From the NCBI RefSeq assembly GCF_015277775.1, contig NZ_CP063849.1:7641501-7705500 (forward strand): DNA of 64,000 nt, given 5' to 3'. The notes under the pieces were generated by a model that was given only the letters and a program-made list of their open reading frames with translations, was not told where the DNA came from and did not search any database. The stretch's first letter is position 1; each line of letters opens with the position of its first letter. This document shows positions 1,199 to 43,686 of the stretch, piece after piece. Position numbers and translations under genes: made by a program. This DNA is from Paludibaculum fermentans. Its GTDB lineage: Bacteria > Acidobacteriota > Terriglobia > Bryobacterales > Bryobacteraceae.

Positions 1199-3336
1199 CG
1201 GCTTTTCAGCAGGATCGCCTGGGCACTGTACGGTTTCTCGGACTCCTTGCGTTGGATTCGCTCATAGGTGCCGTCGGGCTTCATGCGGCGCGCTTTCACG
1301 TTGTCGGCCAAATAGACTGACAGGATTCTATCGCGGATCTGCCTCACCAGCGAGGCCCTTTGAATGGGGAACAGGGTTTCCACGCGGCGGTTGATGTTGC
1401 GCGGCATGATGTCGGCCGAGCCGATGTAGATTTCTTCTTCGCCGTCGTTGCGGAAGTAGAGAATGCGGCTGTGTTCCAGGAAGCGGCCCACCACGCTGAT
1501 GACGCGGATGTTGTCGCTGACGCCGGGCACGCCGGGCCGCAGGCAGCAGATGCCGCGGCAGAGGAGGTCGACCTGCACTCCGGCCTGTGACGCCTTGTAC
1601 AGCAGGCGGATGACGCGAGGGTCCACCAGCGCATTCATCTTCATGATGATGCGGGCGTCCTTGCCGGCTTTGGCGTGGGCGATCTCGCGTTGGATGAGCC
1701 CTTCGAGGCGCTGCCGCAGATTGATGGGCGCCACGAGGAGCTTGCGGTAGTCCGATTTGGCGGAGTAGCCGGTGAGGTAGTTGAAGAGATCGGTGCTGTC
1801 CGCGCCGAAGTCCTCGTCACAGGTAAACAGGCCCAGGTCCGTATAGAGATGCGCGGTGACGGCGTTGTAGTTGCCGGTGGAAAGGTGCACGTAGCGGCGC
1901 ATGAGGGTGCCCTCGCGGCGCACCACCATGGCCACTTTGCAGTGCACCTTCATGCCGACGAGGCCGTACACGACGTGAACGCCCTCTTTTTCCAGGGCGC
2001 GGGCCCACTCGATGTTGGACTCCTCGTCGAAGCGGGCTTTCAGCTCCACCAGGACGGCCACCTGCTTGCCGTTCTCGTTGGCTTCGAGCAGGGCTTCGAC
2101 GACGGGTGCGTTGCGGCCGACGCGGTAGAGCGTCATCTTGATGGCCAGCACCTGCGGGTCGCGCGCCGCCGCGCGGAGGAAGTCCACCACGGGCTGGAAG
2201 CTGTCGAAGGGCTGGTGCAGCAGGATATCGCCGCGGCGGACCATGCCGAAGATGTCCTCATCCTCAGCGAGTTGTTTCAGCGGAGCAGGCGTGAAGGGGG
2301 CATCCTTGAGTTCCGGACGGTCGAGCGAGGCCAGGTGCCGCAGGCGGACCAGGGAGAGCGGGCCTTCGGTTTTGTAGACGTCGGTGTCGTCGATCTCGAG
2401 GTTGGTCTTGAGGATCTCAAGCAGGCGCTCCGGCATTTGCTTTGGCACCTGCAGGCGGACGATGGCCCCGAAGCGGCGTTGGCGCACGCCTTCCTCGATG
2501 GTTTCGAGCAGGTCTTCCGCTTCGAGTTCCTGGATGGCCATTTCGGCGTCGCGGGTGACGTGGAAGGGATGCGACTCGACGATCTCCATGCCGGGGAACA
2601 GCGCACCGAGGTTGGCCTGGATCACCTGTTCGATCCAGACGAAAGACACGCCCTTGCCATTGCGTTTCAGGGCGCCGCGCTGCAGAGGCACCAATTGGGG
2701 CAGGGAATCGGGCACTTTGACGCGGGCGAAGTGTTCGACTCCGTTGGGATCGCGGATCAGCACCGACAGGTTCAGGCTGAGGTTTGAGATGTGAGGGAAG
2801 GGGCGGCCGGGATCGAAGGCGAGGGGCGTGAGCACCGGGTAGATGGTGTCGTCGAAGTAGCGCCGGGCATGGTCCTTCTGGTGCTCAGTCAGCTCCTTGT
2901 ATTCCAGGACGTGGATGCCGTGGGTGCGCAGTTCCTCCAGCAGCAGCCGCCGGCACGCCTGCGCATCCGCAAAGAGGGATTGGCAGTAGGTGCGGATAGC
3001 CTCCAGTTGGCGCGCTGGAGACATGCCGTCCGGACCGGCGTCGAGGATGCCGGATTCGATCTGGTTGGCCACGCCGGCCACGCGCACCATGAAGAACTCG
3101 TCCAGGTTGGAGCCGAGAATCGAGAGGAATTTGACGCGCTCCAGCAGGGGGTTGCTGGGATCGCGGGCCTCCTCCAGAACCCGGGACTGGAAAGCCAGCA
3201 GGCTGAGTTCCCGGTTCAGGTAGAGCGAAGGCGCATTGAGGTCGACCGGCGCCTGCTCCGGTTTCTCTTTCCTGGGGCTTCCTTTGGAGGTCGCGGCCGG
3301 AACTACTTTTTCTATTTTCCTTTTGTTGCCCGGCAT
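1192..3336 (-). CDS. ppk1: Polyphosphate kinase 1
   Basis: The protein has 714 residues from the ATG at 3336. An upstream in-frame extension to 3426 is less likely, because the conserved N-terminal block (LYLNRELSLLAFQSRV) begins about 40 residues after the chosen start. Hallmarks are SNLDEFFMVRVAG near the N-terminus, the KVHCK...RRYVHLSTGNYN block containing the autophosphorylated histidine region (E. coli His435 equivalent), and FLEHSRILYF containing the second conserved histidine (E. coli His592 equivalent). It makes long-chain polyphosphate from ATP, reversibly. It is the first gene of a three-gene polyP operon. The basic N-terminal tail (lysine/proline rich, about 35 residues) is an extension relative to the E. 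coli enzyme. The stop overlaps the next gene's start. Confidence 0.95.
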   Translation of the reverse strand: MPGNKRKIEKVVPAATSKGSPRKEKPEQAPVDLNAPSLYLNRELSLLAFQSRVLEEARDPSNPLLERVKFLSILGSNLDEFFMVRVAGVANQIESGILDAGPDGMSPARQLEAIRTYCQSLFADAQACRRLLLEELRTHGIHVLEYKELTEHQKDHARRYFDDTIYPVLTPLAFDPGRPFPHISNLSLNLSVLIRDPNGVEHFARVKVPDSLPQLVPLQRGALKRNGKGVSFVWIEQVIQANLGALFPGMEIVESHPFHVTRDAEMAIQELEAEDLLETIEEGVRQRRFGAIVRLQVPKQMPERLLEILKTNLEIDDTDVYKTEGPLSLVRLRHLASLDRPELKDAPFTPAPLKQLAEDEDIFGMVRRGDILLHQPFDSFQPVVDFLRAAARDPQVLAIKMTLYRVGRNAPVVEALLEANENGKQVAVLVELKARFDEESNIEWARALEKEGVHVVYGLVGMKVHCKVAMVVRREGTLMRRYVHLSTGNYNAVTAHLYTDLGLFTCDEDFGADSTDLFNYLTGYSAKSDYRKLLVAPINLRQRLEGLIQREIAHAKAGKDARIIMKMNALVDPRVIRLLYKASQAGVQVDLLCRGICCLRPGVPGVSDNIRVISVVGRFLEHSRILYFRNDGEEEIYIGSADIMPRNINRRVETLFPIQRASLVRQIRDRILSVYLADNVKARRMKPDGTYERIQRKESEKPYSAQAILLKSRC

Positions 3337-3490
3337 ATACGCTTCTAACAGGGTAGCGGACGGCCGCCACTGGCGCTGGGACGAGTTTCCCGCTCGACAA
3401 GATTGTGCGCCACGTTCTCTAATCAAACAAGGAGCCTGTGCCGCAGACAGCTTGAGGATGGCACCTGGCCGGGCAGGCTATGAGTACTTA

Positions 3491-5632
3491 ATGAGAGACG
3501 CTGGGAAACTACCCGCCTTCCGTTTGTGGACCAGTCTCCGCGTGCTGTTGAGCGTGGTTGCTGTGGTGGCGTGCGGCGGGGCCGCCGTGCTGATCTGGCA
3601 TCTCGGTATGTACCGGACGCTCAGCCAGCACGCGTTCCGCGTGGGTGCGGACAATGCTCCACCTTACAGTGTGCTGCGGCCGGGCCAACCGCCTACTGGT
3701 CTGGCTGTCGAAGTCCTGAGAGAAGCAGCGCGGCGCAAAGGCATCCGGCTGATCTTCGTGGAGACGCAGGTCGGGGTGGATGAAGCGTTCCGGCGCAATC
3801 TGGTGGATCTGTGGCCAGCGGCGACCGACACGCCGGAGCGGCGCAAGTGGCTGCATGTCTCCGATCCCTGGCTGATGAACCGGCTGTGCATCGTTTCCCG
3901 CAGCGACAACCCGGTCCACGCGATCGCCGACCTCAAGAACAAGCGTGTCGGCAGCGTTTACCTGCGCATCGTGAAAGAGATCGGCGGGCCGAATCCGCCG
4001 CCGGGCATGACCGCGCGAGAGGTTCCGGGCCGTGCGGAAGGGCTGCTTGCCCTCTGCCGGGGCGAGGTGGAGGCGAGCATTATCGAGCAGCGCTTCCTGG
4101 AGCAGAAACTGCTTGTCCGGCCGGCCGCCTGCGATGGGGTTTCGCTGGTTGTCATGAATGTGCCGAGCGCCGACCGCATGCTTTCGGTGCTCGCCAATGA
4201 ACAGAGTGCGGCGGCGGCGATCATGTTGCGCAAAGGGATCACTGAGATGAGCCGCGACGGTTCGTTCACGCACATCCTGGACTTCTGGTCCTCGTTCATG
4301 GGGAATGAAATGCGAATCGTTTCGGAGCTGGAGACGAAGGCCCGGCAGTCGCGCATTTCGTTCTATGGCACCGTGCTGCTGGCGATCATGGGCATCGTGC
4401 TGGTGGTGCAGAACGGCAGGCTGCGGCACGCCAACCGGCTGGCGGGCGCCGCCACACGGGCCAAGAGCGATTTTCTGGCCTCCATCAGCCACGAGATCCG
4501 TACGCCGATGAACGGGATACTGGGGATGTCGCACATCCTGCTGGAATCGCCCCTGCCGCGGGAGCAGCGTGAGCACGTGCAGATTATCGAGAGTTCCGGG
4601 CAGTCGCTGCTCCGCCTGATCAATGACGTCCTGGATTTCTCCAAGATCGAGGCCGGCAAACTGACGATCGAGCAGGAGGCCTTCAACCTGCGCCAACTGG
4701 TGCAACAGGTGGCGGCCCTGGTGCTGCCGAGCGCGGAAGCCAAAGGGCTCAAGTTAAACCTCTCGGTCGCCGGCGACCTGCCCGCGATGCTGGAGGGCGA
4801 CCCTGGCCGCATTCGGCAGGTGCTGCTGAACCTGGTGGGCAACGCCGTGAAATTCACTGAACAGGGCGCGGTGAGCGTGGAAGTTTCGATGGGGGAGGCT
4901 TCCGGCGAACTGGTGGCCGTGCGGATTGCCGTGCGCGATACGGGCATCGGTGTGGCGGCTGAGAATCTGCCCCACCTCTTTGAGAAGTTCTACCAGGCTG
5001 ACTCTTCCGCGTCCCGGCGCTTTGGCGGCACGGGCCTGGGGCTCTCCATCAGCCATGAGCTGATCCACCTGATGGGCGGCACGATCCAGGTGGAAAGCCA
5101 GCCTGGCACCGGCTCCAATTTCTGCGTGGAGCTCAAGCTGCGCCGGATCTCCGGAGTCTGGCAGGATGAGCTGGTTCCCGAGCCTGCCGCCGCGGCGAAC
5201 CTCCCGCCGACGCCGCGAGAGGGTTTGAAGGTGCTGCTGGTGGAAGACAACAAGGTCAATCAGCGAGTGGCGACACGGTTCCTGCAGCGCCTGGGCTGCG
5301 AGGTGGAACTCGCCGAGAACGGGTTGATCGCGCTGGACCGGGTCCGCGTGCTGGCGGACGGGTCGCGGTTCGATCTCATCCTCATGGATTGCTTCATGCC
5401 CGTGATGGACGGCTTTGTCGCCACGCGGAGCATCCGGGCCGTGGAGACTGCCGCCGGATGGCGGACTCCTGTCGTGGCGATGACGGCGTCCCTGCTGGAG
5501 GAAGACCGCCGGCGCTGCCGCGAAGCCGGCATGGACGACTACATTCCGAAGCCTGTGGATCCGGCTGAACTGCGACGGGTGGTGGCCCGCTTCGCTCCCG
5601 CGAAGGACGCGAGCCGGCCGGAGTCTGCCTGA
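3491..5632 (+). CDS. Hybrid sensor histidine kinase with periplasmic solute-binding-like sensor and C-terminal receiver
   Basis: The protein has 713 residues from the ATG at 3491; an in-frame ATG at 3458 is the alternative. The order is: transmembrane helix near residues 14-36; a periplasmic SBP_bac_3-like region about 45-270 (FRVGADNAPPYS, GLAVEVLREA); a second membrane helix (VLLAIMGIVLVV); HisKA with the H-box SHEIRTPMNG; HATPase_c with N-box (NAVKFTEQG), DTGIGV and GGTGLGLSIS; and a receiver domain with LVEDN, the phospho-acceptor in LILMDCFMPVMDG, and a terminal IPKPVD lysine. The architecture resembles BvgS/EvgS-type kinases that sense small ligands in the periplasm. No separate response regulator lies next to it, so output probably goes through an unlinked partner. 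It is divergent from ppk1 with about 150 bp between starts. Confidence 0.88.
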   Translation: MRDAGKLPAFRLWTSLRVLLSVVAVVACGGAAVLIWHLGMYRTLSQHAFRVGADNAPPYSVLRPGQPPTGLAVEVLREAARRKGIRLIFVETQVGVDEAFRRNLVDLWPAATDTPERRKWLHVSDPWLMNRLCIVSRSDNPVHAIADLKNKRVGSVYLRIVKEIGGPNPPPGMTAREVPGRAEGLLALCRGEVEASIIEQRFLEQKLLVRPAACDGVSLVVMNVPSADRMLSVLANEQSAAAAIMLRKGITEMSRDGSFTHILDFWSSFMGNEMRIVSELETKARQSRISFYGTVLLAIMGIVLVVQNGRLRHANRLAGAATRAKSDFLASISHEIRTPMNGILGMSHILLESPLPREQREHVQIIESSGQSLLRLINDVLDFSKIEAGKLTIEQEAFNLRQLVQQVAALVLPSAEAKGLKLNLSVAGDLPAMLEGDPGRIRQVLLNLVGNAVKFTEQGAVSVEVSMGEASGELVAVRIAVRDTGIGVAAENLPHLFEKFYQADSSASRRFGGTGLGLSISHELIHLMGGTIQVESQPGTGSNFCVELKLRRISGVWQDELVPEPAAAANLPPTPREGLKVLLVEDNKVNQRVATRFLQRLGCEVELAENGLIALDRVRVLADGSRFDLILMDCFMPVMDGFVATRSIRAVETAAGWRTPVVAMTASLLEEDRRRCREAGMDDYIPKPVDPAELRRVVARFAPAKDASRPESA

Positions 5633-28194: not shown

Positions 28195-29280
28195 TTAGGT
28201 TTTCCGGATTCGCCGCACGATTTCCGGCACTATCGAGTCCAGAGGCAGGATGGCGTCTGCCAGCCCGGCGGTGGCCACGGCGCCCGGCATCCCCCAGACA
28301 ACGCTGCTCGCCTCGTCCTGGGCCAGCACGGTGGCGCCGACGGCCTTCAAGGTGGACGCCCCGCGCAGTCCGTCGAGACCCATGCCGGTGAGTACGGCAG
28401 CCAGTACTCCTGCGCCGTACACCTCGCCAGCCGACCGGAACAGTACATCCACCGAGGGCCGGCAGGAGTTCTCCGGTGGCGATTGATCCAGCCGTATGGT
28501 GGCCCGGCCGTTCTCCCTCCTGACGCGCATATGGAAATCCCCGGCGGCGAGCACCACGGCGCCCGGCCGGACCGGTTCGCCTTCCGCCGCCTCAACGACG
28601 GGAAACGGACAGAGCCCGGACAATCTGTTCGCCAGCAGCTTGGTGAACTGTGCCGGCATGTGCTGGACAACCAGGATGGGCAACGCAAACTTCGGAGGGA
28701 AGCTTGGCAGGATGCTGGCCAGCGCCGCCGGGCCGCCCGTTGAGACCCCGATCACCACGGCTTGGCCCAGGCTGCGCTCTGCCTGGAATTGGGTTGGAGG
28801 CGCCGTGCCCGCCTGGCCACCTGCCCTTGCCGCCGACACTCGAAAGAATTGCCGGATCTTCGGCGCCAACTCACAGCGAACCCGGGCTGCGTCCTGCTCG
28901 GAGGGGGGCTCCTGGGGCGGCTTGGATACATAGTCGTCCACCCCCTGGGCCAGCGCCTCCAGTGTTGCCGGAGCGCCCCGTTCCAGTGCTGCGCTGATCA
29001 GGATTACCCGCATTTCCGGATACAGGCTGCGGACCCGGCGCAGGGTGTCGAGCCCGTCTTTGTCCCCGGCTTCCAGATCGAGAGTGAGAACATCGGGATT
29101 GATCTGGGGGATCCGCTCCAACGCGACCGTTCCGGTGGCGGCTGCTCCCACCACCTCGATGAGGGGATCTGCCTCAAGGGCGTGTGCCAGCAGCCGGCGC
29201 ACCATAACGGACTTGTCCACTACAAGCACCCGGATTCTCGACCCGGGTGCCAGTTCCCTTCGCGCTCGGGATGCATGCAT
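28195..29280 (-). CDS. cheB: Chemotaxis response regulator protein-glutamate methylesterase CheB
   Basis: The protein has 361 residues from the ATG at 29280, five nt after the cheY stop. It has an N-terminal receiver (residues about 15-130, phospho-acceptor Asp68 in VLTLDLE) and a C-terminal CheB methylesterase domain with catalytic Ser (GVSTGGPAAL), His (VVQHMPAQFT) and Asp (LTGMGLDG). It demethylates or deamidates the receptor in opposition to CheR. One oddity is that the acidic pair that binds Mg2+ in receivers (usually D-D-S) reads D22-K23-S24, so phosphorylation of this receiver may be altered. Confidence 0.93.
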   Translation of the reverse strand: MHASRARRELAPGSRIRVLVVDKSVMVRRLLAHALEADPLIEVVGAAATGTVALERIPQINPDVLTLDLEAGDKDGLDTLRRVRSLYPEMRVILISAALERGAPATLEALAQGVDDYVSKPPQEPPSEQDAARVRCELAPKIRQFFRVSAARAGGQAGTAPPTQFQAERSLGQAVVIGVSTGGPAALASILPSFPPKFALPILVVQHMPAQFTKLLANRLSGLCPFPVVEAAEGEPVRPGAVVLAAGDFHMRVRRENGRATIRLDQSPPENSCRPSVDVLFRSAGEVYGAGVLAAVLTGMGLDGLRGASTLKAVGATVLAQDEASSVVWGMPGAVATAGLADAILPLDSIVPEIVRRIRKT

Positions 29281-29285
29281 GGTCC

Positions 29286-29657
29286 CTACTCCAGCAACCC
29301 GATGATGCGCAACTTGTCCGCGATCATCTCCCGCGTGAACGGCTTCATGAGGTACTCGTTGGCTCCTGCTTCCATGGCCCGAACCATCTGGCCCATGCCC
29401 GTCTCGGTAGTGACCATGAGAAGTGCTGTCGATAGGGCCTCGGGCTTTGTCCTTACTGCCTGCACGAACTCCAGCCCCGTGATGCCAGGCATGTTCCAAT
29501 CGACAAGCACCAGATTCGGACACGAAAGCGGCGGTTCCAGTAACTTCAAAGCCTCGGTGCCACTGGCAGCCTGGGTTACCTCGAACCCGAGCGCTGCCAG
29601 TTCCCTGGACAGAATCATCCGCATTGCGCGTGAGTCATCCACCACCAGTGCGTTCAT
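29286..29657 (-). CDS. cheY: Single-domain CheY-like response regulator
   Basis: The protein has 123 residues from the ATG at 29657, 13 nt after the receptor stop. It is a stand-alone receiver with acidic pair VVDDSRAM, phospho-acceptor in LVLVDWNMPG, switch Thr (MVTTET) and lysine in LMKPFT. It should carry the CheA signal to its target (flagellar motor, pilus machinery or another effector). No CheZ, CheC or CheX phosphatase is present in this operon. Confidence 0.93.
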   Translation of the reverse strand: MNALVVDDSRAMRMILSRELAALGFEVTQAASGTEALKLLEPPLSCPNLVLVDWNMPGITGLEFVQAVRTKPEALSTALLMVTTETGMGQMVRAMEAGANEYLMKPFTREMIADKLRIIGLLE

Positions 29658-29670
29658 TGCCAGCTCCCCT

Positions 29671-31647
29671 TCAGATCGTGAATTCGCCAACCAGCTTCTG
29701 GAGATGGGCGGCCATCTGGCTGAGCGATCGGGCGGCTTTCTCTGAGTCGGCTGTGCCGGCTGTCGTGCTGCGCGCAGCCTCGGCTACGCCGGCATTGTTC
29801 TTGGCGATCTCATTCGTGCCCTTGGACGCTTCCATGACATTGCGCCCAATCTCATTGGTGGTGACCGTCTGTTCCTCCACGGCGGAAGCGATGGTGTTCG
29901 AAATGTCGTTGATCTGCGCGATGATGGCGGTGATTTCGCCAATTGCCTTGACCGCGCCGACAGTATCACCCTGAATGGCTTCGATCTTCTGGCCGATCTC
30001 CTCAGTCGCCTTCGCTGTCTCCTTCGCGAGTTCCTTGACTTCATTGGCGACAACCGCGAAGCCTTTGCCTGCCTCTCCGGCTCGAGCCGCTTCGATAGTC
30101 GCGTTCAGGGCCAGAAGATTCGTTTGCTGTGCGATGGAGGTGATCACCTTGATCACCTGGCCGATCTCGATGCTCGACTCACCCAGCTTAGTGATGGTCT
30201 GATTCGTGGTTTCCGCGGTGCTGACCGCGTTGCGGGCGACTCGCGCCGCTTCATTCGCGTTCTTGGCGATCTCGCGAATGGACGACTGCATCTGCTCGCT
30301 GCCGGAAGCCACCACGGAAACATTCTTGGAAACCTGTTCGCTGGCTGCGGAAACGACATTCGCCTGAGTCGCGGTCTCCTCCGCATTGCCCGCCAACTGC
30401 TGGCTGATCGAGCTCAGCTGTTCAGAGGCCGTCGACAGCGAACTGGCGTTTTGCGCAATCTGATGCAGGCTGCCGCGCAGATCGTCGGCCATCTTGTTGA
30501 TGTTGTCCTTGATGCTGGCATGGTCGCCCCGATACTGGCCTGCGACCCGTGCCGTCATATCCTTCCGCGCAATCCGCTCCAGCACGACCGCCGCCTCGTT
30601 GACCGGCTCCAGAACCGCATCCAGGGTCTTGTTGACACCTTCCACGATCGAGCGGTACCCGCCTTCAAACCGCGTGACGTCGCCGCGTGTCGATAGTTTC
30701 CCTTCTACCGCCGCCTTTGTGAGGGTCTCCGTCTCAGTTGCCAGGCGCCGCACCGCTTCCACCACTTTCACGAAGCTCTTGCCCAGCACATCCTTCTCCG
30801 AACTTGCCGTGATCTGCACATTGAAATCACCCGCGGCGATGCGCTGTGCTTGTTCAGCTCGCTCGCGAATCACAGCCGTCATCGTTCGAAAGGCGCGTGC
30901 CAGCAAACCAAGTTCATCCTTGGTGTCAAGCTCCACATTCACGCTGGCATCGCCCTCAGCCAACTGAGCCGCGGCGTTCTGCATCGCCTTCAGCGGCCGG
31001 CCGATCATTACAGCGAAAAGCATGCCCAAACCGATGGAGCTGAAAACGCCCAGTCCCAGGAATGCCATGATCTTGGTCCTGGCCTCACTGGCAGCTACTT
31101 CATTCGCCTTGCGGTCGGTTTCTGCTTGTTTGGCGTTGATGTCGATGAGCGCTTGTATGCTATTGCGTACTTCCGACTGCAACACCCGTAGCTGGCCAAA
31201 CATCATGTCCTTTGCCTGAGCCTCGCGGCCCGCCTGGACCAAGCCAATCACCTGGTCGCGCCCTCGTTTGTACGTGGGCCAGCTGGTGCGGAACTTCTCC
31301 AGCATCGACTTTTCCTCATCCGTGAGATTGGTCTTCGAGTACGCGTCGATGCGGGCCTCGAGCTTGTCATTGTCGTCCTGAATGGCGCTTACAGCCCGCT
31401 GCCGCTCCTCCTGGCTGTTGCTGAGCAGCATGTTGCGCACCTCGGTGCGAATGTTCAATACCGCTGCATTGGCGTACCCAAGATCACGAATGGGCACAAG
31501 GCGGTCAGCGTATAGCATGGACGACCGCTGATTCATTACGCTAAGGCCGGATAACCCAACCCAACCGATGAGCCCGGCAATGCACGCCACCAGGGCGAAC
31601 CCGGCCTGAAGCTTGGCGCCGATTTTCAAATTGTTAAACCACTGCAT
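29671..31647 (-). CDS. Methyl-accepting chemotaxis protein with several HAMP-like repeats
   Basis: A 658-residue chemoreceptor. It has TM1 at about 16-35; a periplasmic four-helix-bundle (4HB_MCP-like) region at 36-190; TM2 at about 193-215; and a classical HAMP at about 216-264 ([29 protein letters not shown]). Three further HAMP-like modules are visible at about 265-305, 306-348 and 349-395 (repeated GxF/GKL...G...V..VN and a final [10 protein letters not shown]). The signalling hairpin at about 510-560 carries the invariant tip [25 protein letters not shown] in overlapping short blocks. No C-terminal NWETF-type pentapeptide is visible. It lies between cheW and cheY. Confidence 0.93.
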
Positions 31648-36298: not shown

Positions 36299-37468
36299 TC
36301 ATTCCCCTCGCCACAGCTTGGGCAGGAACCGGTAATAGAGAAGATGACGCCAGGTCGCCCAGTCGTGCCCGCCGTTGCCTCCGACATAGTATTCGTGGAC
36401 GATCTTGTGGTTGAGCAGCGCCTGGTGCAGCGCAACGCACCTCTCACCAATCCGCTCATTCGCCTCGCCTGTGCCCTGGCCCACGAACAGGTAGGCCACT
36501 TTCCTGTTGACGTCCGGATCGTTGAGGAATTTGCTGCTGGTTTTCTCACTGTCTGTGTCGCCTGCGCTGAGCACTCCGAAGGAGGCGAAGAGATCCAGGC
36601 TGTTGAAGCCGACGAACTGGGTGTGCCTTCCGCCCATCGACAAGCCCGATAGCGCGCGGCCTCGTGGATCCTTGCGCGTGCTGTACTGGCTGTCGACCAG
36701 GGGAATGATGTTCTGCCGCAGGTCCGCTTCGAACAACGGGAAGGTCAGTTCCGTGTGCCTGGGATGGTTCCGGTGCACCATTTGATTATTCGGGATGGCG
36801 ATAATCATGGGCAGCGCTTTCCCTTCCGCCAGCAGGTTGTCCATGATGAAACTGACTCGGCCATCGTAGATCCAGTTGTAGGCGAGTTCTCCGCTGCCGC
36901 CCAGCAGGTACAGCACTGGATAGCGCTTCGCCCGGTCATAGCCCGGCGGAGTGTAGACGTACAGTTCCCGCTCGCCATTCGTCACGCCGGAATGATAAAC
37001 GTGCCTGGTCACGTTTCCGTGTGGCACGTTTCTTGCGTCGTAGTACGCGGGCCCGTCGCCCGGCACAACGAGTTGGCTGAAGGCCGGTTGAGCCGCGGTG
37101 CCCGCGATCGTGTTGTTCGGATCCGCCATGCGCACTCCGTCCACGGTCAGGGAGTAAACATACATATCCGGCTTCAGCGGCCCAATCGTCAGGGTCCATG
37201 CTCCGTCGTCCCCCCTAAGGAAAGGCACCGGCTTGTTGGCCGCGCCCAGGGCGATCAGCAGGGCCGGGCCAGTCAGTTGGACCTCATGCGCCTGGGGCGC
37301 CTTCAGGCGGAACGTCACCATCCGGTCGTCCCGTACTTCCGGAGACAGGATGGCTGCGCCAAATGGGATGAGATTCTCAGTGTTCTTCTGCGGGTTATGG
37401 TCTAGGTTCACGTTCGCCTGCTGGGCGAACAGGGCGGGCAGGCAGGCAAGCAGGACGAGTGATCGCAC
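36299..37468 (-). CDS. Secreted CE1-like esterase (enterochelin-esterase/feruloyl-esterase type)
   Basis: A 389-residue protein with signal peptide (VLLACLPALFAQQ). Residues about 25-120 form an E-set/CBM48-like N-terminal domain (TFRLKAPQAHEVQLTG, WTLTIGPLKPDMYVYSLTVDG). The rest is a putative esterase: YPVLYLLGGSG oxyanion region, nucleophile in ALSGLSMGG near residue 272, and catalytic His in GGNGGHDW near residue 372. It probably removes feruloyl or acetyl groups from plant polysaccharides, which fits the adjacent GH30 enzyme. The two genes are convergent with a 44 bp gap. Confidence 0.82.
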   Translation of the reverse strand: MRSLVLLACLPALFAQQANVNLDHNPQKNTENLIPFGAAILSPEVRDDRMVTFRLKAPQAHEVQLTGPALLIALGAANKPVPFLRGDDGAWTLTIGPLKPDMYVYSLTVDGVRMADPNNTIAGTAAQPAFSQLVVPGDGPAYYDARNVPHGNVTRHVYHSGVTNGERELYVYTPPGYDRAKRYPVLYLLGGSGELAYNWIYDGRVSFIMDNLLAEGKALPMIIAIPNNQMVHRNHPRHTELTFPLFEADLRQNIIPLVDSQYSTRKDPRGRALSGLSMGGRHTQFVGFNSLDLFASFGVLSAGDTDSEKTSSKFLNDPDVNRKVAYLFVGQGTGEANERIGERCVALHQALLNHKIVHEYYVGGNGGHDWATWRHLLYYRFLPKLWRGE

Positions 37469-40358: not shown

Positions 40359-40964
40359 CTAAGACTTAGTGACGACGAACTCGCCGTACTCGTGCCCGCA
40401 CTCGATTCCCTTGGTCTGCACAGTCCGGAATGTCCGCATGCCCTTCTGGCCGGTAACATCGTACGGGCCGCCGTACGCCAGGTCCATGAATGCGGCCGAA
40501 ATGCCCTGCAGCATGTAGGCTGCGGGTTTGCTGGCGGCCCCGTAGCTGACGATGTCGGCCTCATAGTAGTCGTAGGCGCGCACCACCATTCGCTCCCCCG
40601 GAACAAGTTCGGCAATTTCGCACTTCGCCCAGCCCCAGGCGGTAAGAACGGCAAACGCGCCGTGCAGAATGTCTTCCGGCACTTGCTCCACCATCGGAGC
40701 GATGACCGCGTTCCACTCTTCCGACGTAATGATCCCGTAGCCTGTGTGGTAGCCACACTCGTGTGCGGCGTTCACCAGCAGGAATTCTGCCGCTTCCGTT
40801 AGATCCAGCCCAACCTGCCGGGTCAGCCGTTCGGCAAACGAATTCCAAAGGACTGCCGGGAGCTGGTTCACAAACACGCCGAATGCAGGAATCAATCCTT
40901 CCTGATTCCCCCCAATATCGATCTTGGACAGGTTCTCGATGACTTTCTTGCGGTTGATTGACAT
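40359..40964 (-). CDS. V4R-like domain protein (last gene of five-gene operon)
   Basis: A 201-residue protein without signal peptide or membrane helix. The C-terminal half (residues about 105-200) has the order and spacing of 4-vinyl-reductase (V4R)-type small-molecule-binding domains: a strand-rich WAKCEIAELVPGERMVVRAYDYYEA, a helix AAYMLQGISAAFMDLAYG, then a glycine-cysteine turn GIECGHEYGEFVV at the end. The family binds hydrophobic ligands or aids tetrapyrrole and coenzyme chemistry. The N-terminal third is predominantly helical and unrecognised. AAGGAAGG precedes the ATG, 12 nt after the upstream gene. The V4R assignment is by pattern only. Confidence 0.55.
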   Translation of the reverse strand: MSINRKKVIENLSKIDIGGNQEGLIPAFGVFVNQLPAVLWNSFAERLTRQVGLDLTEAAEFLLVNAAHECGYHTGYGIITSEEWNAVIAPMVEQVPEDILHGAFAVLTAWGWAKCEIAELVPGERMVVRAYDYYEADIVSYGAASKPAAYMLQGISAAFMDLAYGGPYDVTGQKGMRTFRTVQTKGIECGHEYGEFVVTKS

Positions 40965-40976
40965 ACTCTGCCTTCC

Positions 40977-41513
40977 TTAGTTCGCCACCACCTCGAACCG
41001 CGAGCGCTCCGCGCCGGCAACAATGCTGGCCACTTCATTTGCGCTGAACGACCGCGGCTTCAGTCCGAAAACCGCCGCGAACAATGCCGTCACATAGCCG
41101 CACGTCACGTAGTTCACCGCCTGGTCGCGCTTGCCGAACTTCCTGATCCAGCCGGCATCCAGGTGCGAGGTCAAAAGCTCGACTTCGCCGCCACCTGCGC
41201 CTGCGCACGCCACCTTCAATTGCCCCAGGCCGCTGAACGCGTAGTATTGCTCGCCGATCAGAACGCGGTCGGCAATCGTTGCGATGCCTTGCTTGCGGTA
41301 GTAGTCCGACAGGATGTGGAAGAACGCATCCTCACTGACCTCTCGCAGCAGTTTCTTCCCATCAAGAAACGCACAGTCCTCCGCGAGTTGCGTGTACAGC
41401 GTCAGGTAGTGATGGCAGTGTAGAACATGAGTCACCCCGTTGATGTTGTGCCGCGACCGAACTGGGTCAAAAGTCCGCTCTATGATAAGTTCAGTTTTCT
41501 TATTAACCGGCAT
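40977..41513 (-). CDS. Probable second V4R-like protein
   Basis: A 178-residue soluble protein with a strong GAGGAGGAG Shine-Dalgarno. It begins with RTFDPVRSRHNINGVTHVLHCHHY, which carries two histidines and a cysteine in HCHHY (about residues 32-36). The C-terminus (VNYVTCGYVTALFAAVFG, then ANEVASIVAGAERSRFEVV) aligns in layout with the end of a V4R domain, but the usual cysteines of C-x(n)-G-x-x-x-C are alanine and arginine. HCHHY could be a metal or ligand site. I do not recognise a characterised homologue. It sits 12-13 nt from both neighbours in the operon and is probably a functional partner of the 201-residue V4R-like protein. Confidence 0.6.
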   Translation of the reverse strand: MPVNKKTELIIERTFDPVRSRHNINGVTHVLHCHHYLTLYTQLAEDCAFLDGKKLLREVSEDAFFHILSDYYRKQGIATIADRVLIGEQYYAFSGLGQLKVACAGAGGGEVELLTSHLDAGWIRKFGKRDQAVNYVTCGYVTALFAAVFGLKPRSFSANEVASIVAGAERSRFEVVAN

Positions 41514-41525
41514 TGCTTCTCCTCC

Positions 41526-41717
41526 TCACACGTTGGGGGCTTCCAGGCCCGTTACTTCGCGGATTGCGGCGCGGAATTTCTCAATAAGCTCCGGAGAATC
41601 CGGCGTTTGCTCCGCCTTGTTGGACGGCACCAGCGTCTTCATAGCGACCCGCATCTTTGCAGTCGCTCCGCCATGGTCGTGAACAAAATCGTAAAGTTTG
41701 ACTAGCTTTTGTGCCAT
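41526..41717 (-). CDS. Small conserved-looking protein of unknown function (63 aa)
   Basis: A 63-residue acidic/basic mixed protein starting at the ATG at 41717, with GGAGGA 6 nt upstream; a GTG two codons earlier is possible. It has no signal peptide and no cysteine. The pattern KLYDFVHDHGG-x-x-AKMRVAMKT, then PDSPELIEKFRAAIREVTG, looks like two amphipathic helices joined by a proline-containing turn, and ends with GLEAPNV. It overlaps the end of the 104-residue gene by 16 nt and lies 12 nt before the V4R-like gene. I do not recognise it. It may be a subunit, a carrier or a peptide substrate of the operon's enzyme. Confidence 0.65.
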   Translation of the reverse strand: MAQKLVKLYDFVHDHGGATAKMRVAMKTLVPSNKAEQTPDSPELIEKFRAAIREVTGLEAPNV

Positions 41718-42016
41718 AGACACTCCTCCACAGGTATTGCCTCAAGCGCATCGTTCCATGTGCGTCGAATTTCTTCTTTGTTCCGGCGCGGGAACGTGGC
41801 CCGGCAACTTGATTCGCCCTCCACTCCCTGTGCAATCAGTCCTTGTGCTGATCGCAAGCGGAAGTAGGGACGAGGGAAACTTGAGAAGTACTGAACTTCC
41901 CCGAGATGGCGCAGAGCGAGGATATTCTCCCTGGTCCACGCGGATGCGAGCAGATATCGATAGACGGCGCTGCCGTCAAAACAATCCTCCAATTTCACTA
42001 CTTCAACGATGTGCAT
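41702..42016 (-). CDS. Small protein of unknown function (104 aa) overlapping the PLP-enzyme gene
   Basis: A 104-residue soluble protein from the ATG at 42016, which lies inside the last 19 nt of the aminotransferase gene; the 3' end overlaps the 63-residue gene by 16 nt. Features are an acidic N-terminus (VEVVKLEDCFDG), ALRHLGEVQYFSSFPRPYFRLR, GVEGESSCRATFPRRNKEEI and a C-terminal cysteine (PVEECLWHKS). Three cysteines (about residues 12, 71 and 99) could accept or relay sulfur, which would fit the desulfurase-like gene upstream, but that is speculation. No recognisable family. The tight overlaps argue that it is a real gene. Confidence 0.6.
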   Translation of the reverse strand: MHIVEVVKLEDCFDGSAVYRYLLASAWTRENILALRHLGEVQYFSSFPRPYFRLRSAQGLIAQGVEGESSCRATFPRRNKEEIRRTWNDALEAIPVEECLWHKS

Positions 42017-43137
42017 CGGGATACTCTTGACACCGCGTCCAGTGCCTCCCCAACCTCCTCTTCCGTTGTGAAGCCCGAGATGCTGAACCGGACCGTTCCC
42101 TCTGGCGCGGTTCCGATCGCCTTGTGAATCAACGGCGCGCAATGGAGTCCGCTCCTGCAGGTGAGGCCAAAACTCTGCTGTAGACAATGCCCAAGTTCGG
42201 CTGCGGGCCATCCTGCGAGCTGCATTGAAACGATGCCCCCACTCTCGTTGCCCCCGCCTGCGAGAAAGACTCCTGGAATCTGCTTCAGTCCCCTGCGGAG
42301 CGCTGCAGCTCTTATGCTCTCCAGACTCCTGTGATCTGCGCTGTTCTGCGAATGCCATGCGAGAGCCGCCCTAAACCCCGCCAGCCCGGCAAGATTAGGT
42401 GTGCCGGCTTCCAGGCGCATGGGCATCTCTGGCGGATGCTCAGCCAGGTCGCTTCGTGCGCCTGTGCCGCCGACTACTGTCTGGTGCAGTTCTAATCCAG
42501 GTGCGACATACAGCGCGCCGACACCGGTGGGTCCATGGAGCCCCTTATTTCCATTGAAAGCAATCATGTCAGCGTGAAGCTCACTGGCCTTGCAATCCAG
42601 ATGGCCCACAGATTGGGAGGCATCCAGCAATGTAAGGGCCCCCGCGAAGTGTGCTTGGGCAAACAGACGAGGAACGTCTTCAACGTGTCCGGTTACATTG
42701 CAGCGGTGGTTCAGGATCACCAGTCGCGGCTCAAGCCGCAAGATCGATGAGTAGTCCTCTTCCAGCACGGCGCCTGTGGCATCACAGGCGACCACTCGCA
42801 CCCGGATTCCTGTTTCGCGCCGCAGTCGCTCCAGGGGACGCAGTACGGAATTGTGCGCTGCTGCGCTCACAGCCACCAGAGACCCATTGCCAAGCTTCAT
42901 GCCCAGAATCGACAGGTTCAGGGCATATGTCGCATTCGCGGTGAACACGATCCGGTTGCAGTCAGTTATGCCGAGCAACTCTGCTGCCTGCATCCTGCAT
43001 GCGCGTATGAGCCCCGATGCAGAGCCTGCATCCCTGTCGATGTCACCGACGGGAGTGGTCAGGGCGTCAGTCACGGCTTGGGCAACGCCCGGGGCTTTGG
43101 GCCAACCCTCCGCCGCATTATTGAGATAGCTCGACAC
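41998..43137 (-). CDS. Class V aminotransferase-fold PLP enzyme, cysteine desulfurase / selenocysteine lyase-like
   Basis: The protein has 379 residues from a GTG at 43137, chosen because the conserved YLNNAAEGWPKAPGV block begins four codons later; AAGGA precedes it. PLP-site features are ATYALNLSI, the histidine of NHRCNVTG, the Asp of DASQSVGH, the Schiff-base lysine of FNGNKGLHGPTG and the active-site cysteine loop RSGLHCAPL. This matches group II (SufS/CsdA-like) desulfurases, specifically the family often found beside selenium or sulfur-transfer genes. It should mobilise sulfur or selenium from (seleno)cysteine. No sufE, sufBCD, iscU or selD gene is adjacent. It is the first gene of a five-gene operon with two small proteins and two V4R-like proteins. 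Confidence 0.85.
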   Translation of the reverse strand: MSSYLNNAAEGWPKAPGVAQAVTDALTTPVGDIDRDAGSASGLIRACRMQAAELLGITDCNRIVFTANATYALNLSILGMKLGNGSLVAVSAAAHNSVLRPLERLRRETGIRVRVVACDATGAVLEEDYSSILRLEPRLVILNHRCNVTGHVEDVPRLFAQAHFAGALTLLDASQSVGHLDCKASELHADMIAFNGNKGLHGPTGVGALYVAPGLELHQTVVGGTGARSDLAEHPPEMPMRLEAGTPNLAGLAGFRAALAWHSQNSADHRSLESIRAAALRRGLKQIPGVFLAGGGNESGGIVSMQLAGWPAAELGHCLQQSFGLTCRSGLHCAPLIHKAIGTAPEGTVRFSISGFTTEEEVGEALDAVSRVSRCTSLK

Positions 43138-43686
43138 GCTTCCTTCGGTGTTTGGTGATCGGCTATATTGCGATTGAACTTTAGCGGCGAAATGCAAAAA
43201 GCGAGCAGTAGTGATGTGGCGCGGAGTTTGAATCTTTGAGTGAAAGTAAAGGAAGAAACCTTCTCCAATGTGTCGCACCAGCTGGTACGTGAATCTGAAC
43301 AGATCTATAAGCTAAGTGCGTACTCGTAATTATGCAGGATGATAGCGTATCGCGGTTGATTCGGCCGGCTGGGTCGGCGAGGCTAGCTATGTGCGCATGT
43401 CCGGTTGAACGCGTGAAAATGCAATACATGGAAGATGTACATTATGTAAAAGACGAGAGGTTAATTGGTGAAGATTGCCGAGAGCCGATCTGGTATTGTG
43501 GCAATGATACAAAGAACTACTCGAAGCTTAGGGTGCGAGCTTGGCCGGTCGATGGCGCAGCGTGCGTGAATTCAGATAGGAGGACGGCGGATGGGGAGGC
43601 CCGTTTCTGAATCATCCAGGCTGAAGTGGCGTCATTACAGCTTCCCATGCTTCTCGCGAAAGGCTATCGGACTGGCGCAGGCTGGG
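43138..43686. other. Intergenic region, lower GC, no supported gene (549 bp)
   Basis: The segment lies between the desulfurase operon start and the dioxygenase stop, and is visibly less GC-rich than its surroundings, with stretches such as TCTATAAGC and GTAATTATGC. It probably holds the operon promoter. An open frame at 43332-43610 on the plus strand lacks a ribosome-binding site and family motifs and is not called. The drop in GC could mark old foreign DNA or a regulatory region. Confidence 0.45.

Follow-up and report, generated by a model that had tools for sequence, protein, structure and literature searches.

The window analyzed here is a stretch of 64,000 nucleotides from Paludibaculum fermentans (contig NZ_CP063849.1, positions 7,641,501 to 7,705,500 of the forward strand). 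On its minus strand lie five closely packed genes, designated P1 to P5, which look like a real, undescribed working unit. They encode a pyridoxal phosphate (PLP) enzyme of the cysteine-desulfurase type, two small proteins, and two proteins assigned to the V4R superfamily:

41998 to 43137, minus strand: P1, class V PLP enzyme, cysteine-desulfurase type, EF2568-like (379 amino acids, GTG start)
41702 to 42016, minus strand: P2, small protein with one invariant cysteine, Cys12 (104 amino acids)
41526 to 41717, minus strand: P3, small protein (63 amino acids)
40977 to 41513, minus strand: P4, V4R-superfamily protein A, HCHH motif at residues 32-35 (178 amino acids)
40359 to 40964, minus strand: P5, V4R-superfamily protein B, invariant Cys70 (201 amino acids)
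43138 to 43686, minus strand: intergenic stretch upstream of P1, presumed from its composition to bear the promoter

These frames had been proposed by a first-pass annotation and were confirmed, as none of the five translations contained an internal stop. The frames of P1 and P2 overlap by 19 nt and those of P2 and P3 by 16 nt, while P3/P4 and P4/P5 are each separated by 12 nt. The annotation had given each gene its own Shine-Dalgarno sequence or an overlap-coupled start, and this was borne out: Shine-Dalgarno-like sequences were found by eye before P1 (GAAGGA), P3 (GGAGGAG), P4 (GAGGAGGAG), and P5 (GGAAGG), and P2 starts inside the P1 frame. Longer open frames enclose P2 (218 amino acids) and P1 (426 amino acids); the starts adopted here match those of the relatives. 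Upstream of P1, positions 43200-43599 had the lowest G+C of all 400-base bins between 34000 and 50000 (0.50).

P1, P2, P4, and P5, joined in one subgroup by P3, recur together in two gene orders. The genome searches behind this were confined to one phylum, and the relatives' loci were found through P4 or P5 queries or profiles. Among 299 genomes of the class, the queries P0005 and P0002 each matched only the window's own genome, which holds one P5. Query P0004, run against 247 genomes of the phylum with E 0.01 as the limit, returned five rows, belonging to the window's own genome, G331, G479, G425, and G468, of which the last two were dropped as their frames overlap longer frames. In G331 the five genes stand in a row in the order P3-P4-P5-P1-P2, with identities to the window of 60% for P5, 44% for P4, 43% for P1, 36% for P2, and 33% for P3. 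With P5 profiles, matches came from 4 genomes in a phylum sample of 396, from 13 in a sample of 148 from the class to which G632 belongs, and from 5 in a sample of 142 from that of G331; these samples overlap, and the distinct positive genomes number 19 including that of the window. The distribution of the unit within the phylum is thus sparse and patchy.

In nine other genomes P4, P5, and P1 occurred together, accompanied by P2 in all eight whose contig extends far enough and by P3 in five. The order is P1-P2-P3-P4-P5 in the window and (P3-)P4-P5-P1-P2 elsewhere. The first-pass annotation had proposed a test for the same five-gene order in other genomes; the gene set recurs, in a different order. 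Since the set is retained despite the differing order, it is held together by selection rather than assembled by chance. At all 8 loci found, relatives of the 104-residue protein stood together with the PLP enzyme, and so did those of the 63-residue protein in 5 of 5, though stray P2 or P3 copies elsewhere would be missed, as the loci were found via P4 or P5. The annotation had named a lack of such co-occurrence, or a V4R assignment that fails in a profile search, as grounds for abandoning its idea of a system. Neither applied: the small proteins do co-occur, and the V4R kinship holds in profile-profile comparison (below). Overall, the idea stands as partly supported.

Wider scans used single sequences and partly exact short peptides, and yielded nothing beyond one contig-end fragment. 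tblastn in plasmids (P0005, P0004, P0002, and the P4-P5 fusion of L041) and in phages (the fusion) gave no match. Exact-peptide scans of genome contigs returned 71 stretches for P0002, none of them confirmed, and 38 for P1, with the fragment, which has the LNNAAEGWPKAPGV start, as the sole yield. In viral contigs, exact peptides of P0005 gave no stretch and those of P0004 gave 9, none confirmed. The fragment lies in L003:1-6198, an uncultured Bryobacteraceae metagenome-assembled genome whose contig ends inside the desulfurase; beside it stand genes that, judged by eye, resemble those of an FmdE-type protein, a permease, and a thioredoxin-like protein. Query P0005 had one weak match in this genome (E 0.03), which was judged to be chance.

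P1 scored 209.7 bits against Pfam Aminotran_5 (gathering cut-off 21.5), which places it in the class V fold. Its best NCBIfam match was TIGR01977 (EF2568) with 300.4 bits, below the curated cut-off of 377, as were the copies of L040 and L049 with 312.3 and 324.8 bits, respectively. The second-best match was the SclA selenocysteine lyase model NF040779 with 224.5 bits (cut-off 525). Both matches span nearly the whole protein, and P1 remained below the cut-off of every one of the 25 NCBIfam models listed. The 60 matches listed among solved structures were mostly desulfurases.

P1 is present at every one of the ten loci in which P4 and P5 are separate genes; these are termed type I (window, L040, L049, L095, L098, L099, L109, L110, L111, L112). 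K198, C333, H95, D172, and Q175 were invariant in the nine complete copies, and the tenth, that of L111, which the contig end cuts off shortly after GLHCA, retains both the lysine and the cysteine motif, so the GLHCA cysteine is kept in all ten. With K198, which we take to be the PLP lysine, and C333, presumably the active-site cysteine, P1 carries the residues of a group II-type cysteine desulfurase, the activity itself being a prediction. An LN pair near the N-terminus is present in 10 of 10 type I copies, and also in the L003 fragment, while all 28 of the other class V rows carry Asp at that position (L031, which could not be extracted, was left out). In a tree of 34 rows, comprising six type I copies (L109-L112 not included) and 28 further class V proteins from the class, the six formed one clade (branch support 97/95, recovered in 96% of bootstrap trees; no value as low in 500 label shuffles), which groups with EF2568-like rows. 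The window and L040 copies have long branches there, and their grouping may be an artifact according to a warning of the program.

P2 contains three cysteines, at positions 12, 71, and 99, as the annotation had counted. C12, F44, F47, P50, F52, G64, and G67 are invariant in nine of nine type I copies (window and eight relatives), and P2 was found at all nine type I loci with sequence remaining. Its start, as placed by the analyst, lies between 19 nt inside the P1 end and 2 nt behind it in all nine. No match to P2 was found in Pfam or NCBIfam, models of SufE and other sulfur acceptors included. P3 gave only sub-cut-off matches in both; it occurs at six of the ten type I loci, and its five relatives, in L040 and L109-L112, each stand immediately upstream of P4. 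P1 itself follows P5 immediately in nine type I loci.

The V4R family model of Pfam (PF02830, gathering cut-off 31 bits) matched neither P4 nor P5 of the window nor anything else in its genome, and the best relatives stayed below the cut-off (L040 P4 with 14.7 and L050 with 13.2 bits; E 0.034 and 0.098). A five-row P4 profile reached only E 0.89 against the V4R structure MJ1460, ranked behind unrelated chains, and a P5 profile had no match in the PDB set. P4 and P5 had no Pfam match and only sub-cut-off NCBIfam matches, and no DNA-binding domain was recognized in them by Pfam. A single-sequence model of P5 was poor (predicted local distance difference test score, pLDDT, 60.7) and gave no Foldseek match under E 0.001. 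As the Pfam family was barely touched, profile-profile comparison against accepted V4R proteins was used, with a reference profile of 14 stand-alone V4R proteins out of 30 V4R loci retrieved, the other 16 being unused. With hhalign, P4 matched this profile at 90.1% (E 1.6e-6, 48 C-terminal columns) and P5 at 94.3% (E 1e-7, 151 columns), these E-values being those of single comparisons. P4 and P5 matched each other at 83.4%, while reversed controls in the V4R profile comparisons reached at most 0.5%. By profile-profile comparison, P4 and P5 are thus assigned to the V4R superfamily, though no scanned copy reaches the Pfam cut-off; the V4R assignment of the annotation holds in the former sense and fails in the latter.

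The remaining nine of nineteen loci form type II, in which P4 and P5 are fused and a different small protein with its own invariant cysteine comes next in all nine:

L050:5166-9893, L100:4640-9258, L101:5456-10052, L096, L097, L102-L104, L041: type II loci

No P1 match was found in type II loci at E up to 1 in the available stretches of 3.6 kb (L103) to 16 kb. Homology to P2 was considered for the small protein that follows the fused gene, in an assignment that had L041 and L050 in its seed; this was withdrawn after a profile comparison of 0.1% (E 0.55), no better than reversed controls, and the protein is therefore regarded as a positional counterpart. In a tree of P4 and P5, the two types fall on opposite sides of one long branch (length 2.24, support 100/100).

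Several residues are shared by all nineteen loci, namely V30, H32-C33-H34-H35, D46, G95, G97, G109, W122, K125, G127, G139, and E160 in P4, and C70, S81, E83, Y134, E135, A158, M160, L162, and others in P5. The types differ in the C-terminal Cys-x7-Cys of V4R domains, which is present in P4 of 9 of 9 type II loci versus 0 of 10 type I loci. In P5, the first of the two columns is occupied by cysteine in 8 of 9 type II loci and in none of the 10 type I loci. Type I proteins lack this usual zinc or redox cysteine pair of V4R domains. This is no bar to membership, as the zinc site of mouse TRAPPC3 has likewise been replaced, while Thor-TRAPPC3 and PoxR bind zinc through V4R cysteines (PMC10933270, in excerpt). 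V4R cysteines have been implicated in the redox-dependent DNA binding of MsvR, C232 and C240 being among those mutated (excerpt of PMC3729527). Their spacing equals that of the P4 Cys-x7-Cys, and they probably occupy the same columns.

The neighbors of type I loci fall into two sets. In L040 and L109-L112, a response regulator with DUF4388 stands upstream of P3 (5 of 5), followed by a stretch or short protein of no recognized family, and sigma-54 response regulators lie farther off in L040, L109, and L110. In L049, L095, L098, and L099, Pfam identified a gene with DUF4388 and Robl_LC7 just before P4 (4 of 4), and in the latter three a ParA-type ATPase and the family c35 follow behind P2. Type II neighbors, counted over nine loci of unequal length, comprised c2 (9), c6 (7), c10 (6), and ParA-type ATPases (5). 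c6 had only sub-cut-off response-regulator and TPR matches, its L101 copy none at E up to 0.001, and neither c2 (three copies) nor the type II small protein (two copies) had a Pfam match over the cut-off. c10 and c35 were homologous (96.9%), and c35 resembled Robl_LC7 (79%), with a sub-cut-off LAMTOR5 match. A roadblock identity is supported for the DUF4388-Robl proteins and weakly suggested for c35, and via c35 for c10. Neither c2 nor the stretch that precedes P3 in L040 and L109-L112 gained such support, the L110 copy of the latter having no Pfam match. No small GTPase, at which no model search was aimed, was found among the Pfam-scanned neighbors. At the operon end in L112, a SpoIIE-type phosphatase gene (L112:4757-5761) converges on P2. 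Between the response regulator and P3 of L109 lies a protein with Fer4 and Fe_hyd_lg_C domains (L109:4986-6326, E 4.1e-32).

The flanks of the window copy are metabolic by Pfam, with an AMP-binding enzyme, an MFS transporter, an esterase, and GH30 on one side and PhyH, two GFO/IDH/MocA proteins, and NfeD on the other. Sigma-54-like sites in the window were below chance (55 versus 75 expected); its single exact TGGCAC-N5-TTGC match lies at 37022-37036 on the plus strand, inside the minus-strand esterase gene. Three response-regulator-like frames were found with a model made from the relatives' regulators (28195-29690, minus strand, and 3236-5632, plus strand; E 2e-10 to 5e-5), two of which overlap each other. 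The relatives' neighbors suggest a signaling context that is not seen beside the window copy.

The reading we tentatively prefer is that of a conserved sensory unit that provides its own sulfur, in which the desulfurase would charge P2 with sulfur for the V4R sensor pair. P1 would draw sulfur from cysteine as a persulfide on Cys333, and P2, made from an overlapping or abutting frame, would accept it on Cys12, a role as acceptor or carrier that fits its invariance in nine of nine copies. P2 might then pass the sulfur on, either to the P4-P5 pair itself, with the HCHH of P4 and Cys70 of P5 as receiving sites, or to a ligand or metal site that the pair holds. In place of the cysteines that bind zinc or form a disulfide in other V4R domains, the state of this sulfur would set a conformation, and the response regulators, roadblock proteins, and ParA-type proteins found next to the relatives could be the signaling partners that read it. 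The window holds the core only, with no such partner adjacent. We infer this transfer and its use as a signal from gene content and conserved residues. The annotation had suggested a sulfur-delivery or ligand-modification system with the small proteins as carrier or acceptor, a role with which the invariant P2 cysteine agrees, while delivery of selenium, mentioned there among the abilities of such enzymes, loses ground (below).

Several observations weigh against this sulfur-charged sensor. The presence of P1 in 10 of 10 type I versus 0 of 9 type II loci (Fisher's test, 1.1e-5), with which the cysteine pattern coincides, is a single evolutionary contrast, not nineteen independent ones, as the types split along one long branch. 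The V4R pair can evidently do without a desulfurase, as the type II loci show none. P2 has no recognized fold (its single-sequence model was poor, with pLDDT 62.8 and no Foldseek match under E 0.001). Asn precedes the PLP lysine in the window P1 where the other eight complete type I copies have His, a possible sign of changed activity. With E 0.01 as the limit, models of roadblock, c2, c10, c35, and ParA matched no frame of the window, and about 10.7 kb separate the operon from the closest frame that resembles a response regulator.

Two other explanations are close rivals. The sulfur of P1 and P2 may build an Fe-S cluster or thio-cofactor in the V4R pair, at its HCHH, or in a neighboring redox sensor, as a building block rather than a signal. 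This is possible though doubtful: the V-x-HCHH of P4, kept in 19 of 19 loci, is a plausible metal site, but it is kept equally in the nine desulfurase-free loci, and the protein with Fe_hyd_lg_C and Fer4 between response regulator and P3 in L109 was the only one in a scan of ten type I loci (E up to 1e-5, several loci being short). Nor did the five operon proteins match IscU, SufB, or SufU in Pfam or NCBIfam. Rather less likely, P1 would donate no sulfur and instead make or degrade a small molecule sensed by the V4R pair, for example another cysteine, selenocysteine, or amino-thiol derivative, with P2 as a V4R partner. The failure of P1 to reach any of the NCBIfam cut-offs, the Asn that replaces the Asp of all other class V rows, and the hydrophobic ligands that V4R domains, homologous to Bet3, are thought to bind (PMC2253512, in excerpt) would agree with this, but a simple lyase need not keep a cysteine such as that of GLHCA, which is retained in all ten copies.

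The remaining explanations carry little weight. A role of P1 as a selenocysteine lyase that supplies SelD or a selenoprotein is improbable: SclA ranks second among the NCBIfam matches of P1 and selD exceeded its cut-off in five of six type I genomes tested, but P1 falls far short of the SclA cut-off, both type II genomes tested also have selD over the cut-off (7 of 8 genomes overall), and G331 (94% complete) carries all five genes with selD at 62.5 of 125 bits, a complete operon without selD over the cut-off, which weakens this reading. The selD of the window genome, outside the window at G000:C1:9301580-9302485, contains one in-frame TGA, as do several relatives' copies, suggesting a selenocysteine-containing SelD. 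An anti-phage Dnd or Ssp system (DNA phosphorothioation) with P1 as DndA or SspA can hardly be credited. P1 matched the SspA (140 bits) and DndA (127 bits) models of PADLOC, as would be expected of other desulfurases too, but the other four window proteins and three P2/P3 relatives had no PADLOC match at E up to 0.01, so that no partner appeared in a test covering the five operon proteins rather than the wider flanks, and the operon's surroundings are metabolic. Equally far-fetched is a chance neighborhood of unrelated genes, to which the absence of P0005 and P0002 matches from the other 298 class genomes sampled would correspond, but which is countered by the same set in nine other genomes in two gene orders.

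Cysteine desulfurases are known mainly from Fe-S, tRNA, and cofactor work, and SufS-SufE and CsdA-CsdE are desulfurase-acceptor pairs. The present locus resembles these in a group II-type desulfurase gene beside a small protein with one conserved cysteine, and differs in that P2 has no Pfam or NCBIfam match and shares its operon with V4R genes instead of genes for Fe-S assembly. With EF2568 and SclA, P1 shares its best NCBIfam matches and, for the former, its grouping in the tree, while it is set apart by scores below both curated cut-offs, its separate clade, and LN for LD near the N-terminus. DmpR is a dimeric V4R sensor with redox or ligand input. MsvR and PoxR likewise have a V4R-superfamily domain and are dimeric sensors with such input (excerpts of PMC3729527 and PMC10933270). 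Unlike these three, P4 and P5 have no recognized DNA-binding domain and, in type I, no C-terminal cysteine pair, and two different V4R proteins are encoded side by side. TRAPPC3 (Bet3) and Asgard TRAPPC3 are V4R relatives, and TRAPPC3-type proteins form dimers (excerpts of PMC2253512 and PMC10933270). The V4R pairs of L049, L095, L098, and L099 recall the TRAPPC3/roadblock pairing in adjoining DUF4388-Robl_LC7 genes, and differ from such systems in being bacterial, with a ParA-type ATPase nearby.

The open-licence PMC literature, with subscription papers outside its scope, contained nothing that combines a V4R domain with a cysteine desulfurase and an operon, or V4R with persulfide, and for cysteine desulfurase with roadblock nothing on such a system by title and abstract start; on DUF4388 or roadblock, only unrelated papers were found. 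The locus is regarded as a new arrangement of known families plus two uncharacterized small proteins.

In its boldest and rather unlikely form, the sulfur-charged sensor would mean signaling by enzymatic persulfidation, in which a desulfurase writes a persulfide, via a small cysteine carrier, onto a TRAPPC3-like V4R heterodimer without the usual cysteine pair, and roadblock, ParA-type, and two-component proteins respond to its output. The unit links a desulfurase to a V4R sensor pair in a signaling neighborhood. It also places V4R (TRAPPC3-like) proteins beside roadblock proteins in bacteria, two families treated together for Asgard archaea and eukaryotes (PMC10933270, in excerpt). Two small protein families with no Pfam match over the cut-off gain a context, and types I and II, which differ both in the desulfurase and in the V4R cysteines, may offer a natural comparison for what V4R domains sense.

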